From: Athripsodes cinereus | Lineage: Eukaryota; Arthropoda; Insecta; Trichoptera; Leptoceridae | Assembly: GCA_947579605.1 (NCBI GenBank) | Contig: OX388315.1 | Location: 372,001-436,000, forward strand | DNA length: 64,000 bases | Direction of reading: 5' to 3' | In this document: piece after piece, positions 3,650 through 54,735 of the stretch | How the letters are laid out: every line of letters begins with the position of its first letter | How positions within the stretch are numbered: position 1 is the stretch's first letter | The notes under the pieces: generated by a model | Databases searched by the model: none | Told to the model about the DNA's origin: nothing | The model's input: only the letters and a program-made list of their open reading frames with translations | Program-made: the position numbers and the translations under genes

Positions 3650-4091
3650 CAGAGGCGTAGCTAGGGTCATCTGCGCCCGGGGACAAAATCTGCGTCCCTT
3701 CTCGGAATCCCCAAGAAATGTTTGAAATTTTACGGTTTATGGTTCATTTTCAAAGCATGAAGCATTATGAAGAATAATATTTGAACCCGAATTGATCTTT
3801 GTTAAAAAAAAACGCCATCAGCAATCCTGCACTGTGAATGTGTAATTTTGTTTATGAGTAGAATGGCGGCCCTTAATGCTCAATGGGGGCGCCAAAATCG
3901 TGTTTGCCATCTGGTTTGAAATGAAGATATTTGTGGAGCTCCAAAATTTAATCTTGCAAATGTATTTGGGATACATTAGTTACATCAAAATAAAATTTAA
4001 AAAAATATTTTTAATACTCATTTTGGCGCCCCCTAATATGGCGCCCGGGGACATATGTCCTCCCCTGCCCCCCCCCCTAGCTAAGCCACTG
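3650..4091. mobile_element. hAT-superfamily MITE with 8-bp target-site duplication
   Basis: The ends are inverted repeats: left CAGAGGCGTAGCTAGGG, right complement CAGTGGCTTAGCTAGGG, with CGCCCGGGGACA further in on both sides. The flanks carry an identical 8-bp duplication CGAAGTAG at 3642-3649 and 4092-4099, as expected for hAT transposition. The 442-bp interior has no transposase. Confidence 0.9.
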
Positions 4092-4324: not shown

Positions 4325-5022
4325 TATGAATTCTCTTACTAATTGTTTGATGCTCACTCCATTTATGGCAATGTTCGCAGTCGCTTCCTCTCTTCCTACG
4401 ACCATACATTTTGTTTTTTCTTTATTTATTTTCATGTTGTACTTTGACAACAGTATACTTTCCATTCAGCTCCATCTCGTCTGCGAGCAGTGCTATGTCG
4501 TCAGCATATCTAATCATGTCGACCTTTTTATTAATTGTTATTCTCTTTTCTAGAATAAGTCTGAGACTCAGGATTGCATCTCTTGTACCAGTCTCCTTGC
4601 GGAATCCAAATTGATCTTCTGAAAGTATTAAGTTTATTTTATTTTCCGCCCTTTTCATTATAATGTTGGTGAGTATCTTAGAAGCGTGTGATATCATGCT
4701 TAAGGTTCTGTGTTGTTCGCACTTTGTGGTGCCTGCTTTCTTAGGAAGCGCTCGTATCAGACATTTGGCAAAGTCCTCAGGTACCTATCTCTCCTGTGTC
4801 GTATATTTTGCAGACAAGCTTATACAATGTATCAAGCATGCCTTTTCCCGCACATTTAAGCAGCTCTGATGGAATCAGGTCGATACCTGGTGCTTTGCCG
4901 TCTTTCAACTTTGCTAATGCAATATCAAATTCACTTCTTAAGATGTCATCTCCATTATTTTCTACGTCATATTCTGCTTCTAGTGCATTGCTTTCCTGGA
5001 GTATGTTCTTTCCTTTGTACAA
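4325..5022 (-). pseudogene. Non-LTR retrotransposon reverse transcriptase, rearranged fragment
   Basis: On the minus strand, residues typical of LINE reverse transcriptase appear in order: ALAKLKDGKAPGIDLIPSEL, LYKLVCKIYDTGEI, then in another frame SEDQFGFRKETGTRDAIL, and MIRYADDIALLADEMELNG containing the catalytic YADD. The block between 'EKRITINKK' and 'MIRYADD', which normally holds the first catalytic aspartate (F-D-x-x-x-A-F-D), is missing. Frame changes separate the pieces. The copy is dead and carries no endonuclease domain. Confidence 0.9.
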
Positions 5023-5099
5023 TTGTTCTGATTGCGGCTGATTACGACAGGCATAATAGAAAAAACGCAGGGGGGCTGGCAGACATCATGGCTGCACAA

Positions 5100-5262
5100 T
5101 AATATAAGAGATTGCACTGAATGAGGGGTGTGGAGGAGTTGTTCCTAATAATATCATCTATAGATATAGTTTCAGACAGCGAAGGGCCGAGGAAGTATAT
5201 GCCAGAGTAATCGCCAACGTCGAAGGGAGCTGAAAGGGCACTTACAGAAGAAGAATATTTTT
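5100..5262 (+). repeat. LINE 3'-terminal fragment
   Basis: It contains 'gccagagtaatcgccaacgt' and 'gctgaaagggcacttacaga' followed by 'agaag', a LINE ORF end of the kind common in Lepidoptera. It is too short to place in a clade. Confidence 0.4.
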
Positions 5263-8059: not shown

Positions 8060-8555
8060 TAGGTGGAATGAGTGACCATAATTATGTAGTTAGACTAAAC
8101 TCAAAACAATTAATACGCAGTTATACAAAATAACTGCCAACTCAATTTATTATTATTGTTATAATTTAATGAGGTTCTTGTTATGAAATAACATATTTTA
8201 TAGTTATTTATTCAATAATTTTACATTGAGGACGGGCTTACCCAGTATGAAAACTGTTGACATGTCACTGGTCTATTTGTGTGTATAAATTATTTTATTG
8301 ACATAATCACAAAGATTTTTATCATGTCCACAATGACATTTTGATTGCACGCAAATAGTTGATTACTTATCATTTTATTTTGATTAAATATTTCTATACA
8401 AAGAATACACTATCACGGCATTTCCCACTTCATGTGAGGTAGCCAGGATACTAAATCCATATAATTACCATATGAGCTACTATCAACAAATACTGGGATA
8501 CCTGATTTACTAATACCTGCTTTTTTTGAGACACTCGAAAAATTCTATCCATCCA
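8060..8555. other. Gene-free AT-rich stretch
   Basis: No exon was seen. A 'tcacggcatttcccacttca' segment near 8415 resembles a minus-oriented SINE family A tail. Confidence 0.4.
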
Positions 8556-8559
8556 TCCC

Positions 8560-8820
8560 ATCACGGCATCTCCCACAATTGGGGTAACCAGCAGATCAAT
8601 TACTTGTTATAAATATGCAAGTCTTCGTCTTATCCATGTCAATAAAAGTTAAGACATTCAGGATCGGTGGCATACCTTAACGCTGAACTCAAATTTTAAA
8701 TGTCTTAATTTGTGATGTTTTAAGAATTCCTGCCTTTACAGAATACTCTAAAACTTAGAGATAAAAGTGGGAGGCCTATTCATTGCCGGGGACTCCACAC
8801 AACAGTGAAAGTATTCCCAA
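8560..8820 (-). repeat. SINE family A copy, minus orientation
   Basis: It begins with the tail complement 'catcacggcatctcccacaa' and runs through 'gacattcaggatcggtggca' to a degraded head near 8810. Confidence 0.8.
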
Positions 8821-14005: not shown

Positions 14006-14190
14006 CTGTTCGAAAAATAAAGACATTTTGCATCTCAAATTCAGCGATGAGGTTTGCCACCCATCCTGAATGTTTTAATTTTTGTTGGCACAGAGAAGAC
14101 AGCTGGCATGTTTATAACATGCAGCTGGTCTGCTGGCTACCCCACTTGTGGGATATGCCGTGATGGTATAGTAGTAGTAGTAGTAGTAAT
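14006..14190 (+). repeat. SINE family A copy with (TAG)n tail
   Basis: This is the 3' two-thirds of the family: 'gttcgaaaaataaagacatt', 'cagcgatgaggtttgccacc', 'ggctaccccacttgtgggat', 'atgccgtgatggtatag', then (TAG)n. Confidence 0.85.
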
Positions 14191-14411: not shown

Positions 14412-14640
14412 GTGGAGCACCCAGATAGTATATTTTTATGTTCTGCCGAGCACCCGTCAAAAATTTTTCAAGTGTCCTCTGAAAAACCATATGTTCAAAA
14501 AATAAAGACCATCACCCATCCTGTACTTCTTTTGTTGGCACGGAGAGGAGAGCTTGCATGTTTATTACATGCAGCTGGTCTGCTGGCTACCCCATTTATG
14601 GGATATGCCGTGATGGTATAGTAGTAGCAGTAATATATTT
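14412..14640 (+). repeat. SINE family A copy with (TAG)n tail
   Basis: The head 'gtggagcacccagatag' is present but the middle is disturbed. The 3' half from 'ggcacggagaggagagcttg' to 'gccgtgatggtatagtagta' is well preserved. Confidence 0.85.
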
Positions 14641-14918
14641 AAAATAACTGACCATTAGAAAATAAACAAAATTGTCTCTGCAGAGTCCCTGACAAATATC
14701 ATATGTCCCTCACTCTTTTCTTTAAGTTTTCCAGTGTCCTGTTAAAGGCAGAGATTAGACATTTAACATCCATACTGAATATCGTCGTTGCATATTCAAA
14801 AAGAAGTATGTGCCAACATTTTTATTCAGGATACTCTTAAAAAACTGATCATTAAGGCATAAAAATTGTTGTTTGGCCTTTTTATTGGCATGTGATTTTA
14901 TTACTAAAATATTAAATT

Positions 14919-15736
14919 TGTAACACTTAATATTACTTGTATTATTCCCTGAAGGGGAATGTAGAGAGTCAACACTTAAAACTAATTTGGGCGCCAGGTG
15001 TACTCCTGAAGGGGTACACCGAGAGAGTTCAAAACACTGTTTAGCAAATTCACAATTTATTACAATCACTTGACAATTGGTACAATACTGTATAAAGAAA
15101 GTAACACTATTAGTAAAACAATAACGAAGACACCTCCAGGCTAGGTTAGATGGATATTGAGGTAGTCGGAGAGAGACTAGGTAATAAGGGTCGCTACTAC
15201 TGTATGGCACCAAGAGTAGGCACATCTCGGACAGCCAGGGAGTAGCGGGTAGGTATAAGGAAAGTTACCTTATAGCAACAAGAGTAGGTACTTCTTGGAC
15301 AGCTATAGAGGGTAACGGTAGGTAAGGAGAATTACTTCATAGCAACAAGAGTAGGTACTTCTTGGACAGCTAGAGAGTAACGGGTAGGTAAGGAGACCTT
15401 GGCCCTGGAAGAGCCACCGCGATTCTCTCTTTCAGTATGACGGGCTCCGTCTTTTATACCCTTGACTCCGTACTGGACAGCTGATGGATACCTTGGAAGT
15501 GGACGGTGTGATAGTGGGAGAGGTACCTGTTCCTGAACTCCGCCTATCTACTTCCGCTCGGATTGTTCTAGAAGCTTCTAGAACATTCGGGAACATTCTG
15601 GAGGCTTCCATCACTGAGACATCTATTGATGAACCTGGCAACTAATCAGGTACTTCCTGTATCTTGACAGCGGCTGTCAGTCATGATTGGCAGGTTATGT
15701 TATTATTATGCTATGTCGAAAATACGTGGTGTTACA
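14919..15736 (-). repeat. 3' LTR of the element (818 bp)
   Basis: It is identical in length to the other LTR. On the minus strand it holds a TATAAAAG box at 15451-15458, an AATAAA signal at 15056-15061, and three degenerate ~65-bp tandem units (about 15206-15400, 'caagagtaggtacttcttgg'). Confidence 0.95.
15056..15061 (-). terminator. LTR polyadenylation signal AATAAA
   Basis: A canonical AATAAA on the element's sense strand, about 400 nt downstream of the LTR TATA box. The equivalent in the 5' LTR is at 20310-20315. Confidence 0.55.
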
Positions 15737-15781
15737 ATCTCCCCTTCTGGATCTGAAGGCGCCCCGACGATGATCCAGCAT

Positions 15782-18196
15782 CTAAAGTGCAGCTAGATAT
15801 AACATTGTCGGGTGTCTCCCCTTACAGGCTGTCCTGCTGAATACGTGGCAGGTTCCCCTGTTTGAAGATTGGAAAATATGTTGCTTGAAGATCAGGCTGT
15901 CCTGCCGAAAGCGTGGCGGGTTCCCCTGTTTAAAGATTGGACAATCTATTGGGTGAGAGTCAGGCTGTCCTGCCGAAAGCGTGGCGGGTTCCCCTGATAG
16001 TTTGTAATCTGATGATAGCAGGTCAGGCTGTCCTGCCAATATAAGGGCTGGTTCCCCTGACCTCTTGGATGCTATTTTCTTCGAACGTCCTCTTGGGTTC
16101 ATTGACTGGTGGTCCTGCTGGGTGAATTGGCAGGCACTACTGCGGGATGAATGACAGTCAACCTTAATGGTTGCTGAGAGATGAGCAGCAGGAAATCCTG
16201 TTGCTGAATTGGCAGACATCCCTGTTCGATGAGTTGGCAGGTGCTGCTGGTTTTCGGGTGGTCTTACTAGATGAAACATCAGGTGTTCCTGCAGAATGTT
16301 CACCAGGTGGTTCTGCTGGATGAGCTGGCAGGTACGACTGTTATTACATTGGCAGCTTCTCCTGCGGGACATTTGGCAGGTTCTGCCTCTATCTGAGTGG
16401 CGGCTTCTGCAGCTTGGATGCTCCCCTTGGACCAAAACTGCTCCAACAGGATGTATACGAATCTCCTCCCCTTGGACAGAACGTGTCCACTGCTGTGTCC
16501 ATGAGACGTATACCTTGTGGGCCCCACTCCTTGTGTTCTGGGAGATCTTAAAAGGAACATCATCTTCTGCCGGATCTCGGAAAGAGCTCGCCATCACTAC
16601 CAGTGATGTACGAAACCAAAGAAGGAAAAACATTCTTATCTGAAAACATAGAAAAAGAATAACATCTTCTATCATCTTTGCTACCTCTCCAGGGGAGGTA
16701 ACAGTAGGTACATCCGTCTTCTGCGGAGGATCTCGCGCTGATTTTGCTATCAGGATATGCCTTGGTGACATCAGCATCATGGAAAACATGGCAGGAGGGA
16801 CATCCATCTTCTGCTTAACCATTCGCATTGGGTTCAGCACCAGGTCAGTCCGTGGTGCCACTGGAGGTGGTGTGGTCTTCACTGGAAACAGCAGTGGTGG
16901 CACCTCCATCTTGCGAAGGACATTTGCGATTGCGCATATCGGTTTATAGTCGCTACCTGAGGCAGATTGCTGCAAGGGATCACCCTTATACTTCAGTGAA
17001 CAGGTTATTTCAGGCGACTCTACGAAGTACCAGGCCCTCGGTGGTAGGTTCAGTACCAGTCCTGCGTCTTCGACAAATCCAACTCCCAATAGAGTCCGGT
17101 TATCTCGGGACTCTGGGAATACTACGAAAATTGTTGGTACCATGACCTCGTGCAGTGTCACTGGTACCCTGGTGGTCAGGATGTCCTGGACCTTGGCAGA
17201 GCCATCACCCAACACGGCTGTGATCCTCTGCCTGTGAAACTGTACTCCACTATTCTTCAAACAGTTGTATAAATAAAGGGATGCGACACTGGATTTGGCA
17301 CAGCTGTCTATTGCAGTCCCTTCATATTCTCCTACTTGGATGGGGACGGATGGTCGATCTCGAGCATCCGTGAAGTCAAGGGAGCAGAACGACATCTCAT
17401 GCGTTCCTCCCTGAAGTTGGCCTCCTCTGCACTTAGGGCACCTGCTGCGCCTCACTCCTGGGGTACCGCAGCCGTAACAAGCAAACTTGGGTGCGAGAGT
17501 GTTCGTCGAGTGACTCTGTCCTTCACTCTTGAATCTTGGTGGTTGGTGTGCCACCCTTTTCCTCTTCCAGCACTTGTCTTCGGTGTGGCCCCATGATCTG
17601 CAGATCCTGCAGCGTCGCTTAGCCTTCTGATCTTCAGATTCTTTCAGGAACTGCTCTACTTCTCGAGCCAGTATCATCAATGCACTGAACGATTTGAAGG
17701 ATGTTCTGGGGACTCTACCGCGGATTCGAGAATTCAGCTGCCCATACACCATGTCAAGCTGTTGCTCTTCCGTACGGATTGGTCCAGGCAATTGGGCTAA
17801 GAGGACTCTCTTCTTGGTCAGGAAAGTATCTGTTAGCTCGTCGGGTCTCTGCTTCACATTAACAATCTCCTGGATCAGGATGTAACCAGGCTTCCTAGGA
17901 GCAAATGCATCTCTGATCCGCGCCTCAAAGTCTGTCCATTTCCGAACTTCATGCTTCACTCCCTGCCACCATTTGCCAGCCTCGCCCCTCAGCAGGATGG
18001 TGACACCAGTAAGTGCATCTTGATCCTCAATATGTTCAATGGCTTTGAACACCTTCACCGTATCCAAGAACGTCTCAATTATCTCCATGTCACGAGTGCC
18101 ATCATAGTAAGCAGCGCAGCTTGCAAATGAGCCGGATCTTGGCGCCACCATGGACATCAGGTGCTGGAACTGTTCCTGGCTTAAGTTGACTGACAT
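15782..18196 (-). CDS. gag: Arc/dArc-like Ty3 Gag with zinc knuckle and aspartic protease domain
   Basis: The frame is 804 residues from the likely start (MSVNLSQEQFQHLMSMV). Residues ~25-185 form a Ty3-type capsid (YYDGTRDMEIIETFLDTVK, GEAGKWWQGVKHEVRKW, KKRVLLAQLPGPIRTEEQQLD) that closely resembles insect dArc capsid proteins. Residues ~193-207 hold a CCHC knuckle (CRICRSWGHTEDKC), and ~237-259 a second Cys pair motif (CYGCGTPGVRRSRCPKC). A retropepsin-like domain follows (VGEYEGTAIDSCAKSS near 297, RTLLGVGFVEDAGLVLNL). Its catalytic D-T/S-G reads D-S-C, so protease activity is doubtful. The last ~380 residues are repetitive (KMEVPP, KMDVPP, KTDVP, SGEPA..AGQPD units) and show no pol motif. 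The frame is open upstream to 18784, but the family start and a plausible acceptor at ~18260 favour 18196. The product should package RNA into capsids. Confidence 0.92.
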   Translation of the reverse strand: MSVNLSQEQFQHLMSMVAPRSGSFASCAAYYDGTRDMEIIETFLDTVKVFKAIEHIEDQDALTGVTILLRGEAGKWWQGVKHEVRKWTDFEARIRDAFAPRKPGYILIQEIVNVKQRPDELTDTFLTKKRVLLAQLPGPIRTEEQQLDMVYGQLNSRIRGRVPRTSFKSFSALMILAREVEQFLKESEDQKAKRRCRICRSWGHTEDKCWKRKRVAHQPPRFKSEGQSHSTNTLAPKFACYGCGTPGVRRSRCPKCRGGQLQGGTHEMSFCSLDFTDARDRPSVPIQVGEYEGTAIDSCAKSSVASLYLYNCLKNSGVQFHRQRITAVLGDGSAKVQDILTTRVPVTLHEVMVPTIFVVFPESRDNRTLLGVGFVEDAGLVLNLPPRAWYFVESPEITCSLKYKGDPLQQSASGSDYKPICAIANVLRKMEVPPLLFPVKTTPPPVAPRTDLVLNPMRMVKQKMDVPPAMFSMMLMSPRHILIAKSARDPPQKTDVPTVTSPGEVAKMIEDVILFLCFQIRMFFLLWFRTSLVVMASSFRDPAEDDVPFKISQNTRSGAHKVYVSWTQQWTRSVQGEEIRIHPVGAVLVQGEHPSCRSRHSDRGRTCQMSRRRSCQCNNSRTCQLIQQNHLVNILQEHLMFHLVRPPENQQHLPTHRTGMSANSATGFPAAHLSATIKVDCHSSRSSACQFTQQDHQSMNPRGRSKKIASKRSGEPALILAGQPDLLSSDYKLSGEPATLSAGQPDSHPIDCPIFKQGNPPRFRQDSLIFKQHIFQSSNRGTCHVFSRTACKGRHPTMLYLAAL
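15820..16400. repeat. Tandem repeat array in the 3' part of the gag frame
   Basis: Units of about 70 bp built on CAGGCTGTCCTGCC, then GTGGCGGGTTCCCCTG, recur four times at 15826-16060. They continue as degenerate 'ggcaggt.ctgctgg' units to about 16400. They keep the minus frame open and encode the AGQPD/SGEPA repeats. Confidence 0.85.
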
Positions 18197-20172
18197 GTTG
18201 GCATTGTCTGTTGAGGAATCAGTCACACTCTTGGTGTAGTGATTAGGCTTGGACTCCTGCTTAAAGCAAAAAATTAAGGCAAGCACAACAAACTGAATTG
18301 CTTTAAATGAGTTCAACAAATATACAAATAAAAATAAACATAATAATGTGCACTGCTTTGTTTTAATCAAGTCTCTCAGATGCACAAGTAACAACATAAT
18401 ATATACACGCAGTATTTGGCTCTGGTTTACTTTAATTGAGTCCCTCAAATACATTTTGAAAATAGTAATAATATGTTGTAAATAAAACACACATAGGTAT
18501 GACAGAGATTGTCCATATAATGTCCAATGCGCTTTGTAGATAGTATATAACTTAACACTATATACGATAACATTAACTTTTGCTCTATTAAATACACAAA
18601 TAACAAGGTATGTATATATACACTGTATTGTTTTTGGTAAATTCATCAAAACACAATAATAAACAATAATAAAGTACATGCAACACGATTTGCAACTCGT
18701 AAAGTTCCAGACTTCATTTATTATAAACACAAATAATGATATGCACAGGTTCGCTTTTAATATAAGTCCTCCAAGTACACACATACAATAATTAAATATG
18801 ATTTGCTGTAAAACAGTTCATCGCACATAATAATATATAACAATGAAATACGATTTGCTGTAAAAGAGTTCACAATTAATGTTATGCACAGGTTTGCTTT
18901 GAATATAAGTCCACCAAATACATACACATAGTACGAGCAACGACATATAATATTATACAAAAGTAGAAGAAATAGAAATAATAATAAACATTTAAGCTAT
19001 GACACTTCGTTATAAACAACAACAAAAACACGCATGTTCATAGATCAAAGGTAATAGAAAGAAACTGTCCACCGAATTATAGACACGAAATAGTTCACTC
19101 AAATAGTCTGATAGTGAGCCGATTATTTTAGCACAAGTTTACAGATATTGCATTTGCACAACAATGGCCGACAGGTGCACTCTCAATAAAGCACTGAGTA
19201 ATTACTACGGGGTTCACACCGTATATTTGCTTTACATGTGCAATGCTACACCTTTATATAATTATTCATCACAAAATTTATTTTGTTTGTCAATGTGCAA
19301 TGCAACACCTTTCTAATATTTTAACAAAATTCAATCGCACACACTGTCCAGCATTTTGCAAAATGCATTATGTACACAAAGATATACATGTAGGTACATT
19401 GTACATTTGATAATACTTGACAATACAATTTTACGGTGCGCCGTCACTTTATTCTTTCACAGTACACCGTACAATACAACTACGATTATTGTCACGATCA
19501 ATTATTTGTAACACGTACATATCTACGAATGATTATTAAAGTACAGTGCAACTAGGATTAACACAATATTATCTATTATTAATACTATCATTTACGAATG
19601 ATTATTATATTATAGTAGGTACAGTACAACTATGATTAACACTATTATTGAAAATGATTGTTAAAGTACCGTACAACTAGGATTATTCACAATCACGGTC
19701 AATATAAGAAATAACAAAACACTTCATTGCAATGTTTATAAGTACAGTAAAACTACGATTATTCACTATACGTATTTTTAACACTTTATCTTGGATTACC
19801 GAAGATATCAAATAGTTCATATTTATTATACATGAAGAACACTGTTCATAGTAACTACAGTCAAACTATGATTATTCGCTTTACGCATTTTAACACTGTG
19901 ACTTTGATAACTGGATGACCGAGAATATCAAATAGTTTATATTTATTTTACATTCGAGGACACTGTTCATAGTACGTACAGTCAAACTACGATTATTCAC
20001 TATACGCATTTTAACAATATGACTGAAAACTGGATTACCGAGAATATCAAATAGTTTATATTTATTTTACATTGAAAACACTGTTCATGGTACGTACAGT
20101 CAAACTACGATTATTCACCATACACTGATAACAGTTCAGGGTCGTATTCTCGCCACGAGTTGGGCCGCCAAT
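18197..20172 (-). other. 5' leader of the LTR element with tandem repeats
   Basis: AT-rich leader without recognisable genes. Degenerate repeats occur at 18250-18960 (open in the gag frame, encoding CVYLEDL-like and LRDLIK-like units) and at 19540-20120 (units with 'gtcaaactacgattattca'). A CAG acceptor after TTTTTTGCTTTAAG near 18260 suggests splicing in the leader. Confidence 0.6.
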
Positions 20173-20990
20173 TGTAACACTTAATATTACTTGTATTATT
20201 CCCTGAAGGGGAATGTAGAGAGTCAACACTTAAAACTAATTTGGGCGCCAGGTGTACTCCTGAAGGGGTACACCGAGAGAGTTCAAAACACTGTTTAGCA
20301 AATTCACAATTTATTACAATCACTTGACAACTGGTACAATACTGTATAAAGAAAGTAACACTATTAGTAAAACAATAACGAAGACACCTCCAGGCTAGGT
20401 TAGATGGATATTGAGGTAGTCGGAGAGAGACTAGGTAATAAGGGTCGCTACTACTGTATGGCACCAAGAGTAGGCACATCTCGGACAGCCAGGGAGTAGC
20501 GGGTAGGTATAAGGAAAGTTACCTTATAGCAACAAGAGTAGGTACTTCTTGGACAGCTATAGAGGGTAACGGTAGGTAAGGAGAATTACTTCATAGCAAC
20601 AAGAGTAGGTACTTCTTGGACAGCTAGAGAGTAACGGGTAGGTAAGGAGACCTTGGCCCTGGAAGAGCCACCGCGATTCTCTCTTTCAGTATGACGGGCT
20701 CCGTCTTTTATACCCTTGACTCCGTACTGGACAGCTGATGGATACCTTGGAAGTGGACGGTGTGATAGTGGGAGAGGTACCTGTTCCTGAACTCCGCCTA
20801 TCTACTTCCGCTCGGATTGTTCTAGAAGCTTCTAGAACATTCGGGAACATTCTGGAGGCTTCCATCACTGAGACATCTATTGATGAACCTGGCAACTAAT
20901 CAGGTACTTCCTGTATCTTGACAGCGGCTGTCAGTCATGATTGGCAGGTTATGTTATTATTATGCTATGTCGAAAATACGTGGTGTTACA
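20173..20990 (-). repeat. 5' LTR of the element (818 bp)
   Basis: This is the promoter-bearing LTR in the sense of the element. The TATAAAAG box is at 20705-20712, and the same three internal tandem units are at about 20460-20655. One difference from the other LTR was seen (20331). Confidence 0.95.
20705..20712 (-). promoter_or_regulatory. LTR TATA box
   Basis: TATAAAAG on the sense strand of the element, about 275 nt inside the upstream edge of the LTR, in a GC-richer segment. It fits a PolII promoter. Confidence 0.6.
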
Positions 20991-21139
20991 AATTTTAATT
21001 TATTTATTTCAATTTTACAGGATACATACAGTTTATACAAAAAATATTAATATTTGATACTAAGAATAATGTTAAAAAATGATGATAATGTCATAATAAA
21101 CAGTTTATTCTAGAAACGCCAAAACATTTATAAATCTAC

Positions 21140-22049: not shown

Positions 22050-22302
22050 CACATCTTTCTCGGTGCTCCCGGTAAAGAATTGGTCTCCCACTCTTCTCCG
22101 TAGTAAGTTTTCGAGTGTCCTGTAAAAGGCAGGTGTTCGAAAAAATTAAGACATTTTACATCTTAAATTCAGCGATGAGGTTTGCCACCCATCCTGAATG
22201 TCTTGATTTTATGTTGGCACGGAGAGGACAGCTTGCATGTTTCTTACATACAGCTGGTCTGCTGGCTACCCCATTTGTGGGATATGCCGTGATGGTATAA
22301 TA
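22050..22302 (+). repeat. SINE family A, nearly full length
   Basis: Head 'tcggtgctcccggtaaagaa' then 'ttggtctcccactcttctcc', a B-box-like 'ggtgttcgaaaa', core 'gcgatgaggtttgccaccca', and tail 'ggatatgccgtgatggtata'. This is one of the best copies for a consensus. Confidence 0.9.
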
Positions 22303-23485
22303 AAATAAATAAATAAAAACATCTTTCTCAAGATGTAAAATGTCTTTATGTTCAAAATTATAATTACATTTTTGCCCAATAAAAGATTCATACAATTAGT
22401 ATTACGAAATAACTGAAGTCCAGTATCCGATTAACATGTCTTGCCTATTGCAAACTGACACCCTTTCTGTATATGTCAAAATTATAAAATACGCCAAAAA
22501 AAATAGTTATTAAGTATACATGTGTAGTTTATAACATAATCTGCTCATAAATACATAATTATGTTTTAGGATTAAGTTACAAGTATTAACACAATATTTT
22601 AGGATGCGCCCTTGAAGTGGATTTATTCCACAAAACGGCCCATTATAAGTTGTCTATTATTATTATTATAAATTAGTGCCTTAAAATTAATGATACCTTC
22701 TAAAAATATTGAACTTGGCACAAATCGTCCCACAAGGGATGGGATGACGTAATCTTATCAATAACAAAATAATTACATTTCTTCATATTGAAGACTATAT
22801 AATGTTGTATTCATCGTGTATTGTAGAAGGCAAAGGCCTTGTATTATTGAAATTATCAGATAATATTGAGGAGTCTATGTATATTATTATGAACAGTGGG
22901 ATACAAACATCTGGTGTAGGCAACCCAATAGTAGTAGTGAAAAATTGCACAATGATACAATATATTATGGTGTTATTGTTTTTATGATATTGTTTCTCTC
23001 ACACACACTATTAGACTCATTTGTACAATACATATTGATGGTTAATTTGCAAAACCTCTCAACCCACTGTTTTTCAAAAATTAGTAAAATCCAATTCTTT
23101 ATTCTCCTGCAAAATCTCATAGACCACAGATAACTGTATATGAGTCAAATCTAAAAACTCCTCAACACAAATATTTTGAAAATTAGAGCAAAAACTCTCA
23201 ACCCACAAATTTTTCGCAAATAAGAGCTAGTTGCTCCATTTTATTTACAAACTATTAAATAAAACAAATAATGCAAAATCACTATCATTGATTGATTGTA
23301 GGAATTTACAACAGTTTACATGCTCTCCTGTAAAATTTCGTTTATGTGGGTTGAGAGATTTTGCAAGTTAACCATCGATATTTATATGTCTGTGTATCAG
23401 AGCTGGATAGAAACAATTAATGAATTAATAAGTTAATTATTAACTTATTAATCATTTAAATTGTGATTAACTTTTAATTTACTCC
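22303..23485. other. Gene-free AT-rich stretch with a LINE tail remnant
   Basis: At 22600-22650 the words 'cttgaagtggatttattcca' and 'caaaacggcccattataag' recur near 25430 and, degraded, 46575. They mark another retroposon 3' end. No exon seen. Confidence 0.45.
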
Positions 23486-23489
23486 TTCC

Positions 23490-23740
23490 CGTGGAGCACC
23501 CGGTAAAGAATTGGTCTCCCACTCTTCTCTGTAAATTTTCCAGTATCATACTGTAAAAGGCAGGTGTTGGAATTTTTTTGACATTTTACACCTTAAATTC
23601 AACGATGAGGTTTGCCACTCGCCCTGAATGTCTTCTTCATTTTATATTGGTACAGAGAAGACGGCTTGCATGTTTGTTCTATGCAGCTGGTCTGCTGGCT
23701 ATCCCACTTGTGGGATATGCCGTGATGGTATAGTATAGTA
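23490..23740 (+). repeat. SINE family A, nearly full length
   Basis: Head 'cgtggagcacccggtaaaga' is intact, as is the tail 'gggatatgccgtgatggtat'. Both serve as family reference ends. Confidence 0.92.
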
Positions 23741-24465
23741 AGTTGCTTGTTGATGGCAACAGTTGCTGGTGGTACAAGCCTTCGTGGGATAGATAGATAA
23801 TTTAAAAAAAATTGTTTGGAAAACTAAAAAAAATTATGTTGTTTTCCGTTAAAACAGGCTTCTTTTAAAAGCCATCTTAAAAAAGGTCACTTTTAATACC
23901 CATCATTAGTATTATTATTTTTTTGAAAAATACCGAATGACCCTATTTTATAATCTTTGAAAAAAACATTTTTTTTACCCATTACCTGTTCCTTTTTTAA
24001 CCAGCCTTCCCATGTTGTGGGAAGTGGCACGATGTCAAATTTTTTGTACTTAGGAAATTGAAAATTTTTGTACTCTTTGAATTAATTGTAAATTGCGTTA
24101 CATTTTCTAAAAAAATTAATACCTTAACTAGTAATGAAGTAAACTTTTTCTTAAATGAATTAATGATTAAATGAATTTAATTTTTGATTAACAGACTCAG
24201 CTCCACTGCCTATATAATCATCTCACATCATATCCCTAAACCAGCACTCTTCTCTTCAAACTGCTCAACTATTACTGTATATACTAATTAACTTATTAAA
24301 TATTATAGTACCAACTTTAATTAATTAAGCAGATTAAACGTAGCTACTAAATTGTATGCTCTGTGGAGTTCAAACCAAAGAAAAGGTCCCCAACTCTTTT
24401 ACATAAGTTTTTTCATGTCCAGCGTTCCGTAAAAAAGTATGGTACCACCTGTTCGCAGAACTTCA
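23741..24465. other. Gene-free AT-rich stretch
   Basis: A and T homopolymer runs dominate. No exon or clear repeat boundary. Confidence 0.45.
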
Positions 24466-40575: not shown

Positions 40576-48739
<8,164 letters not shown>

Positions 48740-52840: not shown

Positions 52841-54735
52841 GTATGATTGAAAATTCATCATACTCTACTGATACCATTACGGCTTTTGGCCAAGGTGATC
52901 CCAAAACAAACAAAACAGTTACAACAGTGTTTCCACTTTCCGCATAAATTCAGCGTACGTTATGTGGACTATGCCTATATTCGAAGCGATATTATTAAAC
53001 AATCAAATTGCCTTTGCCATTGGTGACTCTGCAATAAAGTTGGTTCTGCTTGCAGGTGGATAGAATAACATGTTGGCGTGAACTTTTGTATACGATGCGG
53101 ATATATAAAAATTGAACTTACTCAATATTATTGGATTACTTATAATGCCATTCAGAAATTTGAAAAAATGTTGTGCATAAACACATTTCTACGATGTTTC
53201 ATTTTTAAAAAACTTAACACTATTTTTACATACATAGTTGCAAAAATTTACACTTTTAGATATGTTCAATTTGGATACCACACCATGTTGTAATATATTT
53301 TTTTCAATATTTTAATTATGACTTTACTTATGTACATTTTATTCTGTTGTTATGTCATTATTATTTAAGTAGTATCATTATTATTTTTGTATGATTTGTT
53401 ATGTGTACGAAATTCAATTCTATATATTGCACATATTTGATTATTATTTTTTTAATATCAATTTGATATTTTTCTATAATTTTATAATATATAAATAATA
53501 TTGACTGTCTATATGAATGCATTTAATATTTTTTACTTGGATATTCATGAAATCTTGGATGAAAAATTCTTAAAAATCCTGTTATGTTTTAAAGTTATCA
53601 GATTTTTGATAAGTCGATTAAAAAAAATACATTCTAGTGATATCTTTGCATTACACATTTTCTTTATATTGTCAATGTTTTTTTTACCTTATTGTACCTA
53701 CAACGTACACTTTGATGATTTGCATAAAATATGAATTAATAAAATGGTGAATATTCAGATATTTTAAAATACTTCTGTCAAATTTTTTACTTGGTTTATT
53801 TATAAACTATTTGACAATAAAATCAAGTATTTCATTTTGGAAGGCTGCTACTAATAGATAAAGTATGCAAAGGGATATATAAATGAATTAATAAATAAAA
53901 TAATATTATGTGTAACAAATGTAAATTTTAGTGAATATTCATTATATTTTGTAATGATTAGTGATGTGATGGAAATGAGGTCTCAAACTAAATTATTATA
54001 TTATATTTGTAAAATGGAGAGAGTTTAGATGCTGGACACGTCTTACTGAAACTCAATCTTTTATTTATTTATACATTATTGTATGAAATGTTTTGGCAAA
54101 TTGTTAATAATTCTGAGAAATATGTCACAAGCATTAGTGATCAAATTTTTCTAAAGGGCTGTGAATACTTCTTTTGAAACTGTGCTGTAAAATACAAATA
54201 TACATAAATACCATTGATTTAAAACTATATAGCAAGATATATGTTTCTTTATGAATATGACCATTGAGTTAACAAGAAAAGGCAAATAGTAGAGAGCCTC
54301 GGAAAGAAATTGAATTTTTTAAAAGTTTAAAAAAATATAGTGCCCTCGAAGTCATCTCAAGGGTAAATAGTACATTATTACAATTTTTGTAATTTCTATA
54401 TCAATGGCCCAAATTTATATGTCGTAGATTTGTCCAGAAAAAAAATAAATTTATTTTTCTAGCTTATCGACATGTAGAAATTTATATTCTTGCATTTACA
54501 TAAACTGCTTACAATGATATCATAACAATTTTATAAAGTGATTCTTAGTATCAAATATTAAAATTCAAAACTTAAAGAATAATATCACATGCCAATAAAA
54601 AGTCCAAACAATTTTAATGCCCTAATGAACAGTTTTTAAAGAGTATGCCAAAATAAAAATGTTCGCACATATCTCTTTTTGAATATGCAGCGACAATATT
54701 TTTTACAGAAATTGATTTCATATTCATTCTACTTA
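52841..54735. other. Gene-free AT-rich stretch
   Basis: No exon, SINE or LINE was recognised. 52870-53060 is less AT-rich and could be an old element fragment. Confidence 0.4.

Follow-up and report, generated by a model that had tools for sequence, protein, structure and literature searches.

A pol-less Ty3/Gypsy retrotransposon with a dArc-type capsid in Athripsodes cinereus and its probable autonomous partner

Arc-type capsid genes derive from the Gag of Ty3 elements, and dArc1 and dArc2 of Drosophila are host genes. TR-GAG elements of plants are defined by long terminal repeats (LTRs), a single gag frame and no pol domains. What could preserve a capsid after the loss of pol is addressed here for a retrotransposon at positions 14919-20990 (minus strand) of a 64,000-nucleotide stretch from Athripsodes cinereus (Trichoptera, Leptoceridae; GCA_947579605.1, contig OX388315.1), which is called the window throughout and corresponds to C11:372001-436000 of the 716-Mb assembly in 160 contigs. 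With a probability of roughly 0.85, the element inserted recently and belongs to a non-autonomous Ty3/Gypsy family in which pol was lost and gag kept and which is mobilised in trans by an autonomous relative.

The relatedness of dArc to Ty3/Gypsy capsids is in print (PMC8121366, accessible passages). The window element shares the two-lobed Ty3-type capsid with dArc1 and dArc2, whereas it is a mobile, multi-copy LTR element of another subclade. Transposition of one TR-GAG element was observed in Arabidopsis ddm1, and in the accessible passages of that source TR-GAG is likewise a gag-only LTR element whose genome also holds an autonomous relative (PMC8704663). LTRs, a single gag frame without pol and a related autonomous element in the genome were all found for the window element, whose frame additionally holds a protease region and a tail. 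In contrast to TR-GAG, which according to the same passages belongs to the ATCOPIA63 subfamily (PMC8704663), the window element is Ty3/Gypsy with a dArc-type capsid and, unlike TR-GAG as described there, combines a decaying protease region, a novel tail and an LTR mosaic with its autonomous partner. CM-gag of Culex pipiens (1997) is an insect repeat with, by its title in the reference list of PMC3286476, a gag gene only. A protein database search, its scoring limited to the 7,996 candidates with the most words in common, gave 36 hits; insect Ty3/Gypsy elements with an Arc-like Gag (Plutella, Hyposmocoma, Anthophora and others) were 33-48% identical in Gag-Pro over 56-76% of the query among the best 22 of the 36, and several of these database proteins also carry reverse transcriptase (RT), RNase H or integrase, in contrast to the window element. 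No description of this family, or of the second one reported below, was found in titles, abstract starts and passages of the open-access literature. The kind of element is already known, being TR-GAG-like; the dArc-type example, the chimeras in the repeat and unique 5' (R-U5) regions of the LTR, and the contrast between capsid and protease are its interesting parts.

Structure and reading frame of the element

The minus strand is the sense of the element, which has the LTR ends TGTAAC...GTTACA and, in sense order, a 5' LTR, an AT spacer, a primer-binding site (PBS), a leader, one long frame, a polypurine tract (PPT) and a 3' LTR:

20991-20994, unstranded: right copy of the target-site duplication (TSD) AATT
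20173-20990, minus strand: 5' LTR, 818 bp
20707-20712, minus strand: TATA box of the 5' LTR, LTR position 279
20310-20315, minus strand: AATAAA polyadenylation signal, LTR position 676
20153-20170, minus strand: PBS of the native, pol-less type, TGGCGGCCC, the same type as in L054, L055 and L058
18197-20152, minus strand: AT-rich leader of about 2 kb, with 121-bp tandem repeats at 19742-20123
17651-18196, minus strand: capsid of dArc/Ty3 type, Gag codons 1-182 (PDB and Pfam matches)
17327-17650, minus strand: nucleocapsid region, codons 183-290 (zinc-knuckle-like CCHC and CxxC motifs, by eye)
16967-17326, minus strand: protease region, codons 291-410 (neutral-looking substitutions on the pol-less branch)
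16706-16966, minus strand: post-protease region, codons 411-497, still aligning with the autonomous polyprotein
15785-16705, minus strand: tail specific to the pol-less family, codons 498-804, occupying the place of pol and sharing the frame end of the autonomous frame
16663-16683, minus strand: pre-RT remnant of 21 bp, from directly ahead of the RT domain
16421-16452, minus strand: RNase H remnant of 32 bp (GAVLVQGE), by comparison with an autonomous copy
15958-16092, minus strand: remnant of the C-terminal extension behind integrase, 135 bp, 94% identical to the autonomous copy and followed by 68-bp tandem repeats
15738-15748, minus strand: PPT AGAAGGGGAGA, by eye
14919-15736, minus strand: 3' LTR, 818 bp, one mismatch to the 5' LTR
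14915-14918, unstranded: left copy of the TSD AATT

The two LTRs (14919-15736 and 20173-20990) differ only at T15077/C20331 and are flanked by AATT on both sides, which bears out the recent insertion proposed in the first-pass annotation from one LTR difference and an intact duplication. From the TATA box and the AATAAA signal, R is placed at roughly LTR positions 305-695, with transcription predicted to start near 305-310 and R to end near 695. The PBS letters in the element are TGGCGGCCCAACTCGTGG, after the two-base AT spacer behind the 5' LTR; the PBS of the autonomous subfamily is of the TGGCAGCCC type in 12 of 12 copies. PBS and PPT were read by eye; Rfam and tRNA scans of the window gave no match. 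Paired TG...CA LTRs, a short TSD, a PBS and a PPT agree with Ty3/Gypsy (Metaviridae) elements, and the pol order RT-RNase H-integrase was seen in the autonomous relative L019 and not in the window copy, so that membership is counted by descent.

A single open frame runs from 18817 to 15782 (1011 aa stop to stop), with the Gag methionine at 18196 and 804 aa from there; the longest open reading frame in 300 base shuffles of 15782-18266 was 250 aa. The capsid piece scored above the Pfam cut-offs for Retrotrans_gag (PF03732) and Ty3_capsid (PF19259), and against PDB it matched dArc1 (E=3.7e-39) and dArc2 (3.8e-38), with other Arc chains, which we take to be mammalian, at 2.6e-4 at best; the Arc-like capsid claimed earlier is thereby upheld. 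In the protease region one residue is absent relative to L019, two positions ahead of the Asp of the IDSC motif, presumably the catalytic Asp. An AG-ended candidate splice acceptor ahead of Gag was considered and rejected, as it was not conserved in L019 by eye.

Pfam profiles run over the entire interior in all six frames, with X for each stop, detected no RT, RNase H or integrase but the two gag families and two weak matches below cut-off (E 0.055, 0.12), and hidden pol domains were ruled out on this basis. Scraps of pol lie below profile detection, namely the 21-bp pre-RT piece, the 32-bp RNase H piece and 48 residues behind integrase; compared with L019, the frame is 86% identical over the first 497 codons, diverges, and is again 88% identical over these 48 residues. 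The earlier statement that no pol is present is correct once these scraps are added, and the wording "capsid-only" was too narrow, the frame also encoding a nucleocapsid, a protease region and a tail.

A quick capsid tree was built from 40 rows (37 different; 13 of 34 inner branches with support below 80), leaving out P0026, P0034 and P0036; the dArc rows were taken from the PDB alignment, since the protein search with the capsid piece gave three proteins only. The window element and L019 grouped together (100) within a 20-row set (SH-aLRT, the Shimodaira-Hasegawa-like branch test, 95) whose species-named rows were moths and butterflies. dArc1 and dArc2 (98) stood elsewhere, near beetle, moth and butterfly gags at weakly supported forks. 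The window capsid thus did not group with dArc1/2, nor is it a single host gene without LTRs; by this tree it is a relative of dArc, in line with the likeness noted earlier, and not its closest mobile kin. A further Arc-like Gag-Pro frame, P0001 (683 aa, on a 2.6-kb JGI contig), holds only RNase H and integrase-end scraps of pol by eye, from which pol loss with gag retention may recur elsewhere.

Pol-less copies, autonomous relatives and a second family

The genome was searched with the tail (query 15785-16713; 40 of 118 candidates scored, 54 matches), and matches of about 135 bp, the tail end common to autonomous copies, were set aside. The tail was present at 22 or more places, the window included, the 21 others carrying it or pieces of it at 80-97% identity. 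The window element and 17 fetched copies (L024-L042, two fetched twice) were examined, the four other tail-bearing places being C14:16896117, C9:31812139, C16:21161265 and C11:7240617. gag was kept in six of the 18 (window, L024, L027, L032, L033, L037) and lost too in 12 (L025, L026, L028-L031, L034-L036, L038, L039, L042), where the right boundary of the gap lay at element position 3965-3972 in 12 of 12 and the left at 2369-2442 in 10 of 12, L025 and L031 differing. A tail frame of 348-383 aa was kept in the gag-less copies of readable orientation (L025, L026, L035, L036, L038, L039).

The same six gag-bearing copies were found independently by capsid search at 99-100% capsid identity. Among themselves they show 1-6 differences in 627 bp of gag, and they are 12-13% diverged from the autonomous gag. 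Recent movement is implied by 0-1 LTR differences and 4-bp duplications in the four gag-bearing copies compared, namely the window element, L024 (0 differences, AGGG), L032 (0, GTTG) and L037 (1 and one gap column, GAAG); L027 has TTAT on both sides and an LTR pair that is not comparable. The window leader is about 5-6% different from those of the other gag-bearing copies (L047 aside) and the tail 4-11%. Interior divergence was dropped as a measure of age, since the LTR pairs differ by 0-1 despite it, and this mismatch indicates that segments of the element have different histories.

With the LTR as query (40 of 475 candidates scored), the 40 listed rows other than the window's own LTRs were 96-97% identical, many of them paired 4.8-8.0 kb apart. 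Twelve LTR-paired copies were fetched (L009-L020), with 0-3 differences between LTRs and a matching 4-bp duplication in 11 of 12 (AACT and CACT in L018). A frame of 1597-1627 aa in an element of 7.5-7.7 kb is present in five (L011, L012, L013, L019, L020), and L017 kept the long frame with a shortened leader. The L019 frame, searched in three pieces, encodes capsid, RT, RNase H, the zinc-binding and core domains of integrase and an SH3-like domain. When the whole genome was searched with the capsid, 150 of 353 candidates were scored and 93 matches obtained, at least 41 of them with an identity of 88-89%. Of these 41, 26 lie in frames of 1597 aa or more, one of which contains a TAG; another 11 lie in frames of 1338-1370 aa, and 4 are of other kinds. 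This related subfamily is, by predicted domains, autonomous in build, the full set having been profiled in L019. The search for other copies and a pol-bearing partner that had been suggested earlier gave further copies and a candidate partner. Most copies carry pol only if the wider autonomous relatives are counted; judged by tail and LTRs, the pol-less copies make up a family apart, whose LTRs form a lineage of their own.

Five of the 12 autonomous-subfamily copies (L009, L010, L014, L015, L016) have a common deletion of reference positions 4403-5170 (about 0.77 kb, about 11-bp junction overlap), which by position takes from integrase the zinc-binding domain and the greater part of the core and leaves the frame open in 4 of 5; L014 additionally has a longer leader. 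These integrase-deletion copies are a separate, recently active defective class. L018 is without the stretch from inside the capsid to the start of RT. At C22:10085998, 10094621 and 10103244, capsid matches in 1597-aa frames are spaced exactly 8,623 bp apart, which suggests tandem duplication of a segment with the autonomous element.

A second Arc-like family, with a capsid 52-53% identical to that of the window element, has copies of 3,093 bp. L059 (G000:C22:2629263-2632355) has an identical 536-bp LTR pair, the TSD GCAG and a Gag-Pro frame of 549 aa, with no other long frame between the LTRs. An LTR search (32 of 32 candidates scored) gave 33 matches, comprising five pairs 2,556-2,557 bp apart, the L060 pair, one broken copy, and single LTRs or pieces; no member long enough for a full pol was among the 33. 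In L060 the LTRs lie 3,552 bp apart with two differences, RT and RNase H are present and integrase is missing, by eye. None of the five compact copies (L059 and the pairs on C14, C12, C11 and C10, with LTR pairs identical or near-identical) has an interrupted Gag-Pro frame. Between copies this frame varies by 1-29 bases and 1-14 residues, in which constraint is not obvious to the eye.

LTR mosaics and the source of polymerase

Of the 17 other pol-less copies, 16 have an LTR that was like that of the window element at positions 1-470 (0-6% different per bin; 9-13% at 200-300) and beyond 470 was about 8-10% (470-600) and about 20% (600-818) different. Fifteen native LTRs, of the pol-less type, were compared with 12 autonomous LTRs, leaving L025 (LTR rearranged) and L035 (test case) out of the native set, and gave 135 diagnostic columns, which are not independent, many being gap columns of shared indels. 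By these columns the window LTR is of native type over 12-104 and again over 297-448, and of autonomous type over 190-248 and in 102 of 102 columns from 475, the last block comprising:

20173-20516, minus strand: autonomous-type 3' part of R and U5 of the 5' LTR, LTR positions 475-818 (102/102 diagnostic columns)
14919-15262, minus strand: autonomous-type R-U5 segment of the 3' LTR (LTRs differ by one base)

The L035 LTR shows native columns as far as 310 and autonomous ones from 342 on, without a misfit. A solo LTR on C6 stays native as far as 475 apart from a block at 75-99; from 552 it is autonomous with a single exception (5 misfits). In all three the final switch into the autonomous block falls inside the predicted R; in both full copies the block stops at the LTR end, and the PBS is native in the window element and the L035 copy. 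The mosaic is common to both window LTRs and is thus no younger than the last reverse transcription. No autonomous element with the native R-U5 was seen, in that no full-length-sized pair was present among the 40 of 425 candidates scored in this incomplete search, none of which lay near the 41 autonomous capsid matches by eye.

The chimeras fit a first-strand transfer of autonomous minus-strand strong-stop DNA onto a co-packaged pol-less RNA, and with breakpoints of this type in R the polymerase was probably borrowed from the autonomous relative. The earlier proposal of a borrowed polymerase is hence the most likely one, there being a candidate partner in the genome and LTR chimeras that fit co-reverse-transcription. 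LTR recombinants of Onsen in Arabidopsis are likewise readable as a template switch in R between co-packaged RNAs, and in the passages seen of that work the first DNA template switch via R homology explains most of them (PMC5668417). The Onsen exchange is, as described there, within the Onsen family, whereas the present one is between a pol-less family and an autonomous subfamily.

In the sequence of events proposed, pol would have been lost some time ago in the lineage and gag retained. The element's own RNA would be transcribed from its own U3 and packaged with RNA of the autonomous Gag-Pro-RT-RNase H-integrase relative, in particles containing the relative's enzymes, so that reverse transcription and integration would take place in trans. 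The LTR chimeras point to intermolecular strong-stop transfer between the co-packaged RNAs, and the substitution patterns given below suggest that the element's own capsid was made and useful, perhaps in mixed particles or by favouring its own RNA, while protease and polymerase would be supplied by the partner.

Selection, rival explanations and meaning

dN/dS (replacement relative to silent change) between the window element and L019 was 0.14 over codons 1-210 and 0.35 over codons 211-290; the protease stood at 0.21 and the post-protease region at 0.66. Branches were polarised with a third family, L065, as outgroup, using differences fixed in six pol-less and eleven autonomous-subfamily copies; L018, with its capsid region largely deleted, was left out. 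Ratios of amino-acid to silent changes were 3:12 (capsid), 6:4 (nucleocapsid) and 8:4 (protease) on the pol-less branch and 4:13, 5:2 and 0:3 on the autonomous branch, with unresolved changes (amino-acid, silent) set aside (capsid 7, 2; nucleocapsid 7, 2; protease 6, 2). With about 75% replacement expected under neutrality, the pol-less branch departed from it in the capsid (P=1.2e-5) and not in the protease (P=0.41) or nucleocapsid (P=0.22), and capsid and protease differed from each other (Fisher P=0.022). Within the six gag-bearing copies, silent to replacement changes were 4:2 in the capsid (P=0.039), 4:7 in the protease, 3:7 in the nucleocapsid and 3:16 in the post-protease region. From these substitutions the pol-less lineage seems to have gone on needing its capsid protein, and not its protease.

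Several points weigh against a lineage that keeps a useful capsid and borrows its enzymes. Some gag-less copies have LTR pairs that score the same or nearly the same over 380 bp of the LTR; they look recently moved, so that a gag in cis is dispensable. Between branches the protease contrast is P=0.077 by the strict count and P=0.0046 by the window-only count, and the nucleocapsid looks neutral on both branches. The counts are low, the conditions for polarising differed between silent and replacement changes, and the pol-less branch may in part be older than the loss of pol. Ahead of the PBS stands the native AT spacer and not the donor AA that a simple strong-stop transfer would give, and a base shortly after the window PBS is of autonomous type (GAGAA versus native GCGAA), so that a repair step or further switches would be needed; the autonomous-type U3 block at 190-248, with which a one-breakpoint model leaves 10 misfits, calls for more than one exchange. 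Expression and particles are deduced from sequence.

Another idea is that of a pure RNA parasite moved in trans, whose own Gag is useless and whose frame is a relic of recent common descent. Recently moved gag-less members, protease and nucleocapsid changes that fit neutrality, the gag-bearing copy L047 without its start methionine, a capsid signal among the six copies that is small (4 silent, 2 replacement) and the second family's Gag-Pro frames without obvious constraint would all suit it; the 3 amino-acid against 12 silent capsid changes fixed on the pol-less branch and the frame open in 5 of 5 paired copies of the second family do not, and it is considered rather unlikely. The misfits at spacer and PBS, together with more than two blocks in the window LTR, could instead speak for gene conversion at the DNA level, and the autonomous-type base after the PBS adds some weight to this explanation at the cost of the preferred one. 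DNA-level conversion is nevertheless improbable, as the same mosaic stands in both LTRs between intact TSDs, a second full copy and a solo LTR have different final breakpoints that all lie in the predicted R, and both full copies revert to native sequence at the LTR end.

An ordinary internal deletion of a single autonomous copy around the time of insertion, with no lasting pol-less lineage, would account for the pol scraps and the shared frame end, which show Gag-Pol ancestry, and other deletion classes do exist (5 of 12 autonomous-subfamily copies, reference 4403-5170). It is contradicted by the multi-copy family and its separate LTR lineage, with the replacement tail at 21 or more other places at 80-97% identity, the native LTR in 16 of 17 other copies and six near-identical gag-bearing copies 12-13% from the autonomous gag, and was rejected as very improbable. 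A host-domesticated Arc-like gene lying between LTRs by chance is hardly credible: its close likeness to dArc1 is set against young intact LTRs, a TSD, multiple dispersed copies and a capsid that groups with mobile Ty3 gags and not with dArc1/2.

The insertion site (14778-14918) lies within a dispersed repeat (1953 candidates genome-wide, 40 scored), of which a related copy at about 54500-54700 in the window resumes 53 bp past the joined junction. A short dispersed repeat of about 200 bp, about 69-92% alike, occurs at 8555-8790, 14007-14185, 14513-14635, 22062-22308, 23493-23741 and 43607-43820, and is perhaps a short interspersed element (SINE) or a miniature inverted-repeat transposable element (MITE).

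Young, mobile, capsid-bearing, pol-less elements are thus found together with a candidate helper and with LTR chimeras that suggest a copying route. As a tentative generalisation, capsid-keeping, pol-less Ty3 parasites may persist in insects, with the capsid under selection, protease and pol decaying and enzymes taken from a partner, and may have arisen in at least two dArc-type families of this one genome. If true, such elements would stand, still mobile, midway from a complete retrotransposon to a capsid gene of the Arc kind. With a constrained capsid beside a neutral protease, what a pol-less element needs of Gag becomes a testable question.

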